The notes beneath the pieces are model-generated. The model ran no database searches. It saw only the letters and a program-made list of their open reading frames with translations, and had not been told where the DNA came from. Source: Mesorhizobium sp. B2-8-5 (GTDB lineage Bacteria > Pseudomonadota > Alphaproteobacteria > Rhizobiales > Rhizobiaceae). From it: 64,000 bases of DNA. The position numbers were made by a program, and so were the translations under genes. The stretch is taken from contig NZ_CP083951.1 in assembly GCF_006440675.2 (NCBI RefSeq), positions 5,737,501-5,801,500 of the forward strand, in the 5' to 3' direction. Shown here piece after piece: positions 37,553 through 40,475 of the stretch. How positions within the stretch are numbered: the stretch's first letter is position 1; each line of letters opens with the position of its first letter.

Positions 37553-38587
37553 ATGACTGGACTCATGAAAGCCACGGTAGCCGACATCGCCAGAAGCTGC
37601 GGCCTGTCGACCGCGACCGTCGACAGGGTGCTCAACAACCGGCCAGGGGCAAGTGCTGCCAACCGGCAGCGGGTGATGGAGGCGGCCAAGCAGCTCGGCT
37701 ATCTGCCAACGCTCGATCAGGTGGTTTTGCCGTCGAAGCCGGCGCACCTGGAATTCTTCCTGCCGATCGGGTCCAACGGCTTCATGGCCGATCTTGCGCA
37801 TCACATCGAGGATTATGCGGCACGCCTGCCGCTGGTCGCCTCCTGCCGCATCCACAACCTTGCCGGCATTTCGCCGGGCGCGCTGCAAGGCGCGGTGGAG
37901 AACCTGTCGCTCAAAGCCAACGGCGTCGGCGTCATCGCCGTCGACCACCCGCGCACGCGCAACATCCTGCGCGAGCTGGTCGATGCCGGGATCAGGCTGG
38001 TCACGCTGATCTCGGATGTGCCGGCGGCACCGCGCTCGGCCTATGTCGGCATCGACAACCGGGTGGCGGGCCGCACCGCGGCGCTGCTGATGGGCCGCTT
38101 CCTCGGCGGCCGTACAGGACATCTGGCGATGGTGGTCGGCTCGCGCTCCTATCGCGGCCACGAGGAGCGCGAGATGGGTTTTCGTTCGGTGCTGAGCGAG
38201 GAGTTCCCCAATCTCACGGTCTCAAGCGCCGCCGAGAGCAATGACGACCCGGACGCCAGCTACCGCGCGACCATCAAGGCGCTGCACAACGAACCGGACC
38301 TGCTCGGCATCTACTGCGTCGGCGCCGGACGATCAGGCGTGGCCAAGGCCTTGCTCGAGGTCAAGCCGCGCAAGAAGCCGGTCTTCATCTGCCACGACCT
38401 GACCAAGGAAACGCGCCGCTATCTCGTCGACGATCTCGCCGACGTCGTCATCGACCAGAATGCGCGGCTGATCGCCGAGCAGTCGGTGATCCGCCTGCTC
38501 GGATCCATCGCGTCGTCGGCGCCGTATCTGACGAAAAAGTTCATCGAGCCGCGGCTGATCTTCAAGGAAAACGTGCCGGTGCAATAA
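37553..38587 (+). CDS. LacI-family transcriptional regulator
   Basis: A 344-residue regulator. The N-terminal HTH is ATVADIARSCGLSTATVDRVL followed by the hinge NNRPGASAANRQRVMEAAKQLGY; the ligand domain from about residue 65 contains FLPIGSNGFMADLAHHI and YVGIDNRVAGRTAALLMGRF. It follows the transporter genes by 77 bases in the same direction and probably responds to the imported sugar or its acid. The ligand is unknown. Confidence 0.92.
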   Translation: MTGLMKATVADIARSCGLSTATVDRVLNNRPGASAANRQRVMEAAKQLGYLPTLDQVVLPSKPAHLEFFLPIGSNGFMADLAHHIEDYAARLPLVASCRIHNLAGISPGALQGAVENLSLKANGVGVIAVDHPRTRNILRELVDAGIRLVTLISDVPAAPRSAYVGIDNRVAGRTAALLMGRFLGGRTGHLAMVVGSRSYRGHEEREMGFRSVLSEEFPNLTVSSAAESNDDPDASYRATIKALHNEPDLLGIYCVGAGRSGVAKALLEVKPRKKPVFICHDLTKETRRYLVDDLADVVIDQNARLIAEQSVIRLLGSIASSAPYLTKKFIEPRLIFKENVPVQ

Positions 38588-38618
38588 ACCAGCGGGTGGG
38601 CGCACGAAGGCGGCCTTA

Positions 38619-38722
38619 ATGCATGTCGCGCAAAAGTGTGCAGCGGTTTTGCGATAACGACATGCATGAAAACACAGGCTTAAAGCGCGTCGCCTGAATC
38701 CGCTTCAGCGCGACGCGCTTTA
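38619..38722. repeat. Palindromic intergenic repeat element
   Basis: Two nested palindromes: ATGCATGTCG (38619-38628) with CGACATGCAT (38658-38667), and TAAAGCGCGTCG (38681-38692) with CGACGCGCTTTA (38711-38722) around an inner CTGAA/TTCAG stem. I recall similar elements scattered between genes in Rhizobiales. It lies 31 bases after the LacI gene and just before the small RNA. Confidence 0.7.
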
Positions 38723-38809
38723 GCATTTGTCCGACGATTGATCCCGCAATTCTGCACACCAGCTATGCAGGTTTCGCAATTGCCGAATCGTTAGGCAGCC
38801 CGTATTTGT

Positions 38810-38930
38810 CTGGGTGTCGGCCGTCTCCTCCTCCCAGATGTGATGCCGACGCTGAGTACGGCACACCTCCTCCCGTGCCGTATTCGAAATCAAGCCCGCT
38901 GCCACCTCCTCCCGGCAGCGGGCTTTTTCT
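38810..38930 (+). ncRNA. Small RNA with repeated anti-Shine-Dalgarno loops (alpha-r14/'cuckoo' type)
   Basis: Three copies of CCTCCTCCC occur within 90 bases. In two of them the copy sits exactly in the loop of a perfect hairpin: stem 38857-38864/38875-38882 (8 bp, loop ACCTCCTCCC) and stem 38892-38903/38914-38925 (12 bp, same loop) followed by TTTTT, a rho-independent terminator. The first copy lies in a wider loop bounded by GTCGGC (38816-38821) and GCCGAC (38845-38850), and could alternatively pair with TCTGGG (38809-38814). This architecture matches the alphaproteobacterial alpha-r14 family (Smr7C in Sinorhizobium) and the related CcsR/cuckoo RNAs. The loops are complementary to ribosome-binding sites, so it should base-pair with mRNAs. 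The 5' end is estimated; TTGCCG near 38780 could be its -35 element. Confidence 0.85.
38892..38928 (+). terminator. Terminator hairpin of the small RNA
   Basis: A perfect 12-bp GC-rich stem with a 10-base CCTCCTCCC-containing loop and a T run. It ends the small RNA; the minus-strand methyltransferase stop lies 115 bases beyond. Confidence 0.88.
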
Positions 38931-39891: not shown

Positions 39892-40475
39892 CAGCGCGCC
39901 CGGAATGAGGCGATCAGGCTTTCGGCCATGCGCACGAATTGCGCGCTCGGGCCTTCGGCGCCGACGCTCTGCATCGAGACGCGCGCGCCTTCGAGCAGCA
40001 GCGACAGTGTGTCGGCGAGCAGCTCGGCCTGGCCGATGCCGGCATCGCGGCAAAGCGCAACCAGCTTCTCGCGCTGGGCCTCCTTCAGTTCCTTGATGAC
40101 GCGCCTGGCCGGGTGATCGGTCTCGGTGAGCTCGACGGCGGCATTGGCCATGTCGCAGCCGCGGCTGTCGGCGCTGAGCAGTTCGGAAGCCTTTTGGACC
40201 CAGGCATGCAACTGGGCGAGCTTGTCGCCGGGATGCTTGGCCTCGAACTCGTCCCAGATCCTTGACGCCTTCGCCGCCGTGGCGCGCAGGCATTCGACGA
40301 TCAATTCGTCCTTGGATTCGAAGTGACGGTAAAGCGTCATCTTGTTCGTGCCGGCAGCCTCGGTGATGGCGTCGACGCCAACACCCTTGATGCCGTGCTT
40401 GTGGAACATGTCTTGCGCCGTCTCCAGGATTCGATCCCGGGGGCGGGAACGCTCCGCGACGCCGTCAGTCATCAT
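39891..40475 (-). CDS. TetR/AcrR-family repressor
   Basis: A 194-residue repressor. The HTH is RDRILETAQDMFHKHGIKGVG, then ITEAAGTNKMTLYRHFESKDELI; the C-terminal domain (about 80-190) binds ligand and dimerises. ATG 40475 (or the adjacent ATG 40472) follows AAAGGAGATC. It is divergent from an RND pump, with two TetR-type palindromes between, and so very probably represses the pump and itself. Confidence 0.92.
   Translation of the reverse strand: MMTDGVAERSRPRDRILETAQDMFHKHGIKGVGVDAITEAAGTNKMTLYRHFESKDELIVECLRATAAKASRIWDEFEAKHPGDKLAQLHAWVQKASELLSADSRGCDMANAAVELTETDHPARRVIKELKEAQREKLVALCRDAGIGQAELLADTLSLLLEGARVSMQSVGAEGPSAQFVRMAESLIASFRAR

Follow-up and report, generated by a model that had tools for sequence, protein, structure and literature searches.

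The small RNA (sRNA) locus described here lies on the forward strand of a 64-kb stretch of the Mesorhizobium sp. B2-8-5 genome, which was analysed as a whole and is referred to below as the window. The features of the locus, several of them predicted, are as follows:

37553..38587, + strand: LacI-family regulator with a Peripla_BP_4 domain, conserved upstream neighbour (Pfam, synteny)
38753..38769, − strand: probable LsrB/VtlR operator, a predicted site reading TGCACACCAGCTATGCA on the plus strand and TGCATAGCTGGTGTGCA on the minus strand, the latter containing GCAT-N3-TG-N3-T
38779..38784, + strand: likely −35 element ATTGCC (4/6 against CTTGAC; a varying first base, then TTGCC in all 33 loci), a putative assignment
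38780..38798, no strand: second conserved dyad TTGCCGAATCGTTAGGCAG over the core promoter, in which TGCCGAATCGTTAGGCA (38781–38797) fits the NtrC pattern TGC-N11-GCA, with a putative role
38802..38807, + strand: likely −10 element GTATTT (4/6 against CTATAT) after a 17-base spacer, likewise a putative assignment
38812..38930, + strand: ar14 (alpha-r14/NfeR1-type) small RNA of about 119 bases (RF02344 score, folding z, covariation)
38813..38853, + strand: hairpin 1, with anti-Shine-Dalgarno (anti-SD) motif 1 at 38827–38835 in its apical part
38854..38885, + strand: hairpin 2, 11 pairs, with anti-SD motif 2 at 38866–38874
38892..38930, + strand: hairpin 3 and intrinsic terminator, a 12-pair stem and 10-base loop with anti-SD motif 3 at 38905–38913, followed by a T tract
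39894..40475, − strand: TetR-family regulator, conserved downstream neighbour (Pfam, synteny)

A methyltransferase ORF is placed between the sRNA and the TetR gene in this genome. It should also be noted that a repeat element (38612–38728) sits between the LacI gene and the sRNA promoter. It weakly resembles RF02600 (48.3 bits, cut-off 59.8) and has 146 candidates in the genome, of which all 40 that were scored matched, the window copy included.

The covariance model of the Rfam family ar14 (RF02344) matched 38812–38930(+) with 79.3 bits against a cut-off of 58.8 and was aligned from its first to its last position, this being the only family with an above-cut-off Rfam match within the 64-kb window. 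The membership of the alpha-r14 family proposed in a preliminary description of this DNA was thereby borne out. Judged by its sequence, 38812–38930(+) is a further, well-supported member of the alpha-r14/NfeR1 family and thus a known kind of RNA. The founding member, NfeR1 of Sinorhizobium meliloti, silences mRNAs through anti-SD motifs (PMC10746234). The contacts with many mRNAs that the preliminary description expected of the motif are thus a reasonable prediction for the window RNA. A survey from 2011 describes the CCUCCUCCC-loop families SmelA075 and SmelA099 as having several copies per genome and being presumed blockers of ribosome sites (PMC3927594), and a review gives the range of alpha-r14 as Rhizobiaceae, Brucellaceae and Phyllobacteriaceae, with six copies in S. 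meliloti (PMC7143759).

The motif CCTCCTCCC occurs at 38827, 38866 and 38905 (+), and these are the sole three exact matches on both strands of the window; shuffled windows held 0.69 on average, and three anywhere in the window were reached by 1 of 100 shuffles. The predicted fold of the RNA consists of three hairpins with a minimum free energy of −62.6 kcal/mol (z = −8.4, 0/200 shuffles as low). Hairpin 2 is formed by the arms TACGGCAC and GTGCCGTA (11 predicted pairs) and hairpin 3 by the arms AAGCCCGCTGCC and GGCAGCGGGCTT (12 pairs), the latter followed by T5, with the motif in a 10-base loop in each case. The exact scan and the predicted fold together thus agree with the earlier claim of three copies of the motif, two of them in 10-base hairpin loops. 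In the ensemble, motifs 2 and 3 were unpaired with a probability of 1.00 and motif 1 with 0.73 on average. The window RNA therefore has the three hairpins, with CCUCCUCCC unpaired in each and with variable stems, by which ar14 is recognised. The role of terminator previously given to the last hairpin was also upheld by its 12-pair stem and T5 (38892–38930). A simple terminator scan called no terminator, because its rule admits loops of 3–8 bases and the loop of hairpin 3 has 10.

Homologous loci were where the preliminary description had placed one of its possible refutations, and the stems were found to be kept there by compensatory changes. Among the 34 distinct sequences of the 38 window-type loci, 94.7% of cells were paired and 12 of the 37 pairs had changed on both sides, nine of them among the 11 pairs of hairpin 2. 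With slid partners as a control, 32–48% of cells were paired and 1–3 pairs had changed on both sides. One of the five covariation measures used (further pair types) was matched by 41/500 shuffles. For the inner part of hairpin 1, the pairing CATCT/AGATG was rejected, with no compensatory pair, and RNAalifold paired CATC with the second GATG instead (two compensated pairs). In relatives, CATC could pair with one or the other of two GATG, which would allow a mild register slip inside hairpin 1.

The family is widespread around this genome. Four ar14 copies over the cut-off were found in Mesorhizobium sp. B2-8-5 itself. In a first sample of 61 genomes ar14 was detected at E <= 0.001 in 46 and over the cut-off in 37; the E <= 0.001 hits took in this genome and all 36 same-genus genomes drawn in that sample. 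In a family sample it was present at E <= 1e-6 in 114 of 121 genomes and over the cut-off in 108. A total of 122 loci were compared, namely 92 from the same genus (31 of class A, 38 of class B including the window, and 23 of class C) and 30 from other genera. Every one of these carries exactly three CTCCTCCC motifs, a count that holds partly by construction because the ar14 model was used to retrieve every locus. The first motif is flanked by a stem of five or more pairs in 115/122 and the second in 120/122, and the third motif has a stem of 10 or more pairs in 122/122. These stems comprise 58, 59 and 42 distinct forms for the first, second and third motif, respectively. In four of the other-genus loci (L151, L153, L154 and L156), an extra CCTCCTCCC was seen immediately upstream of the three motifs, perhaps a four-hairpin form.

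The classes differ in their surroundings. The class A locus of this genome consists of a pair of DUF1127 genes (matching Pfam PF06568 with 61.8 and 54.9 bits) followed by two ar14 RNAs; this DUF1127/tandem ar14 operon (L167, genome positions 3680600–3683600) has an LsrB-type box upstream. A DUF1127-like frame within 700 bases upstream was present in 30/31 class A loci, 0/38 of class B and 0/23 of class C. No such frame was found upstream of the class B window RNA, which falls outside the cuckoo group in its CcsR/CIN1 sense. The earlier placement in the cuckoo family thus stands as a wider grouping only, the window copy being free-standing with its own promoter and the DUF1127-linked arrangement occurring at another locus. 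The class C copy of this genome (L092, 6094455–6094570) has an upstream TGCATCAAAACGTCGCA that fits the NtrC pattern.

Among the 37 other class B loci, 32 share a neighbour with the window (LacI and ABC ATPase both in 30, TetR without LacI in two) and five have none of the tested neighbours. Window-type copies elsewhere in some genomes (L056, L076, L080, L083 and L096) were observed to have a different upstream sequence and to lack the tested neighbours. When named genomes were scanned for exact occurrences of the class B terminator hairpin, 29 stretches were obtained, 26 from Mesorhizobium, one from Nitratireductor and two from metagenome-assembled genomes without a genus name. The ABC, LacI and TetR proteins of the window had no match in the 30 other-genus ar14 loci of about 3 kb. 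As no neighbours shared with these 30 loci were found, class B may be either the NfeR1 orthologue or a parallel copy.

The promoter was analysed in an alignment of 33 syntenic class B loci, the five of 38 without the tested neighbours being left out. Two blocks upstream of the RNA are conserved, TGCACAnCAGCTATGCA (38753–38769) and TTGCCGAATCnTTnGGCA (38780–38797, with a few variable positions), and TA at 38803–38804 is invariant in the 33 loci. The spacing of ATTGCC-N17-GTATTT is that of the alpha-proteobacterial CTTGAC-N17-CTATAT, with four of six bases matching in each element; the sigma-70 form published for NfeR1 is printed as CTTAGAC-N17-CTATAT (PMC10746234). Transcription would be expected to start near 38812–38816. 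A simple promoter scan called no promoter upstream of 38812. On the strength of the alignment, the window copy appears to have its own conserved promoter, and it lies in a conserved neighbourhood.

The first of the two blocks probably contains a binding site for a known stress-sensing regulator. The consensus of LsrB/VtlR is GCAT-N3-TG-N3-T (PMC8844928, PMC7486931) and the motif of Brucella VtlR is given as CAATGCAGCCATGCA (PMC12595884); GCATAGCTGGTGT is found on the minus strand of the window's first conserved block. The exact consensus was present on the minus strand in 25 of the 33 orthologous loci, compared with 39 of 6600 shuffled upstreams on either strand, and was absent from the other eight. 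In these 25 loci the site lies upstream of the core promoter, as in NfeR1-type promoters, with a gap to the RNA of 41–43 bases. The short consensus occurs seven times in the 64-kb window and for this reason is no proof alone, the weight lying on its conservation and place.

The class B loci and those of other genera were used to build a longer pattern, TGCATWGCTGCNNTGCA. When at most one mismatch was allowed, four matches were found in the 6.46 Mb of this genome (none in the backwards control). Two lie at ar14 loci, one at the window RNA, whose box is one base off the pattern, and one upstream of the DUF1127/tandem ar14 operon. The other two lie beside what we take to be a transporter-like gene and a CNNM/CorC-like gene. 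In the same-genus set, matches were obtained in 37/37 genomes (173 in all; backwards control, 9). Among the matches listed (142 distinct places in 32 of the 37 genomes), 25 were 40–47 bases before an ar14 RNA (24 of class B, one unclassed), 31 were 419–441 bases before a first tandem copy and 86 were elsewhere, the distances being measured to listed ar14 places that mostly hold one copy per tandem. Two of these 32 genomes had no operator near ar14 among the matches listed, and the rough chance expectation for all near places was 0.04. The class B matches are there by construction because the pattern was built on class B, which does not apply to those of class A. Within the other-genus ar14 loci, a box with up to two mismatches was found 40–41 bases upstream in 9/30, with 0/40 shuffles as good in each, and at 78–99 bases upstream in five more, leaving 16/30 without a match within two mismatches. 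The box of the window and those of the nine other-genus promoters face in opposite directions. Class C copies were rejected as LsrB targets, the consensus being found in 1/23.

The genome also encodes the regulator. A LysR protein matches PDB 9hh1 over residues 1–298 (E 5.8e-142); the entry 9HH1 is LsrB, for which a trxB-lsrB operon is described (PMC11975290). The lsrB orthologue lies between trxB and AbcR1, with 72 bases separating it from the former at its start and 776 from the latter at its end. The arrangement trxB – lsrB – AbcR1 was seen at L178:2527–3423 and L162. The short LsrB consensus is also present upstream of AbcR1, with a gap of 49 as against 43 for the window RNA. In S. meliloti NfeR1 is activated by LsrB and repressed by NtrC (PMC10746234), and Brucella VtlR controls DUF1127 genes and AbcR2 (PMC12595884). 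No description of an LsrB box for DUF1127-ar14 operons or for Mesorhizobium ar14 loci was found, a weak negative given that the main cuckoo, alpha-r14 and 2017 NfeR1 papers lie outside the literature covered.

The second conserved dyad could be an NtrC site, a second LsrB half-site or an element of promoter structure, and it could signal a regulator other than LsrB. LysR-type regulators can contact two such sites. In the whole window the pattern TGC-N11-GCA has 18 matches (0.039 per 140 bases); upstream of the RNA it was found twice in 32/33 class B loci, once in the LsrB box (38753–38769) and once as TGCCGAATCGTTAGGCA. Upstream of ar14 loci it was present in 22/23 of class C (within 140 bases), 7/30 of other genera and 0/31 of class A; it also lies near dusB, the gene preceding ntrBC in this genome. 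The published NtrC pattern TGC-N11-GCA is at −101 to −116 of NfeR1 (PMC10746234). The pattern was not found at this place in the window, where the sequence is that of the repeat element. NtrC control of the window RNA is thus possible from the pattern matches.

The promoter also bears on whether the RNA is a primary transcript. It could instead be cut from the 3′ end of an mRNA in the manner of cuckoo RNAs, with read-through from the LacI gene supplying the precursor, as RNase E releases the Rhodobacter CcsR RNAs from a DUF1127 operon (PMC10253847). Some weight is lent to this by the tandem ar14 copies at another locus of the genome, which directly follow two DUF1127 genes as the CcsR RNAs do. 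However, all 38 window-type loci are without a DUF1127-like frame within 700 bases upstream, which 30/31 class A loci have, the sRNA is immediately preceded by a conserved promoter block, and the repeat element separates LacI from the promoter in this genome, so that such an origin is considered very unlikely. It is very unlikely, too, that the window copy is a silent or redundant relic whose structure is kept with little or no expression while other ar14 loci are active. The presence of four copies in this genome fits such a relic, and one of the six copies of S. meliloti was reliably seen by northern blot (PMC7143759), for which reason the window copy may be weakly expressed; a relic would not, however, be expected to keep its promoter blocks, position and RNA structure, all of which are conserved across the genus.

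Still less probable is the conformational switch that had been suggested for the 5′ part, in which GTCGGC/GCCGAC would alternate with TCTGGG/CCCAGA and so hide or expose the first anti-SD copy. The complementary hexamers TCTGGG and CCCAGA are present, and five or six of the six pairs are possible in 22/33 orthologous loci. Complete pairing is nevertheless limited to seven of the 33, another 15 having five of six pairs. In the ensemble of the RNA starting at 38807, the pair 38811–38836 had a probability of 0.000 as against 1.00 for 38816–38850 (GTCGGC/GCCGAC). The TCTGGG arm (38809–38814) is moreover the promoter edge, at or before the likely RNA start. For these reasons the switch was rejected.

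The reading preferred here is that of a free-standing, trans-acting alpha-r14 sRNA with its own, probably LsrB-activated promoter and its own terminator, whose anti-SD loops block several mRNAs; we regard it as likely. The RNA family, the predicted structure, the covariation, the conserved promoter, the operator match and the lsrB orthologue in the genome support it directly, while transcription of 38812–38930(+), LsrB binding and the silencing of targets are parts that we infer. The sRNA would be transcribed from a sigma-70-type promoter of its own, which the LysR-type redox regulator LsrB probably activates from 38753–38769. It would end at its own terminator and expose three anti-SD copies in hairpin loops, and these may pair with purine-rich ribosome-binding sites and so keep translation from starting on several mRNAs, probably in a redundant manner. 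By analogy with NfeR1, activity of LsrB would lead to synthesis of the window RNA and thereby to the masking of such sites.

NfeR1 silences ntrB and ABC-transporter mRNAs via redundant anti-SD motifs (PMC10746234). The putative ntrB of this genome, an ORF so named because it is directly upstream of a gene matching TIGR01818 ntrC, has only a short GGAG before the chosen start codon. Its duplex energy with the anti-SD loop was −8.7, compared with −5.7 to −10.0 for three other genes tried; ntrB was thus not supported as a special target here, its complementarity not being outstanding among the four genes. The full complement, GGGAGGAGG-N3-9-ATG, occurs at six sites in the genome (backwards control, 0), four of which have an open frame of >100 aa; these sites are not put forward as an enrichment. 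The genes concerned (L173, L174, L176 and L177) presumably include a LacI-like regulator and an ABC-ATPase-like protein, the labels being assigned by eye.

Beyond the window, LsrB may drive an anti-SD set in Mesorhizobium made up of AbcR1, the window RNA and the ar14 RNAs ending the DUF1127 operon, with the window operator used inverted, a proposal for which we see about even chances. If true, several translation blockers would be released at once in response to oxidative or symbiotic signals, and with them DUF1127 proteins; proteins of that kind help to process such RNAs in Rhodobacter. A further and weaker step would be for NtrC to act on the window RNA via the core-promoter dyad and on the class C copies via TGCATCAAAACGTCGCA. 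This provides a comparative case of one genus wiring several copies of the same translation-blocking RNA: the window copy has an LsrB-type promoter and the DUF1127-linked pair the same kind of operator, whereas class C is without it but has an NtrC-like pattern. In this way it becomes testable why alpha-rhizobia maintain several RNAs of this type.

Compared with known systems, the window RNA is closest in layout to NfeR1/alpha-r14 of S. meliloti, which likewise has three hairpins with CCUCCUCCC loops, a terminator hairpin, its own promoter and an LsrB-type box upstream of the core promoter, the last being a prediction for the window. The lengths are similar, with about 123 nt for the NfeR1 transcript and about 119 bases predicted here. 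It differs in that the window box is inverted relative to the NfeR1-type promoters of the nine other-genus loci and in having no NtrC-pattern match at −101 to −116. The Cuckoo RNAs CcsR1-4 of Rhodobacter sphaeroides (RF02791) also carry CCUCCUCCC in hairpin loops and are presumed to have an anti-SD action. However, RS0680a (CcsR) has two hairpins (PMC3927594) and the window RNA three, CcsR is cut from a DUF1127 operon (PMC10253847) and the window RNA has no DUF1127 gene upstream, and the CcsR1 model gave 18.5 bits on the window RNA against a cut-off of 65.3. AbcR1 (alpha-r15, RF02345) belongs to an Rfam family of its own, which has matches at two other sites in this genome, and is likewise an anti-SD sRNA under LsrB/VtlR, with the consensus here at a similar distance.
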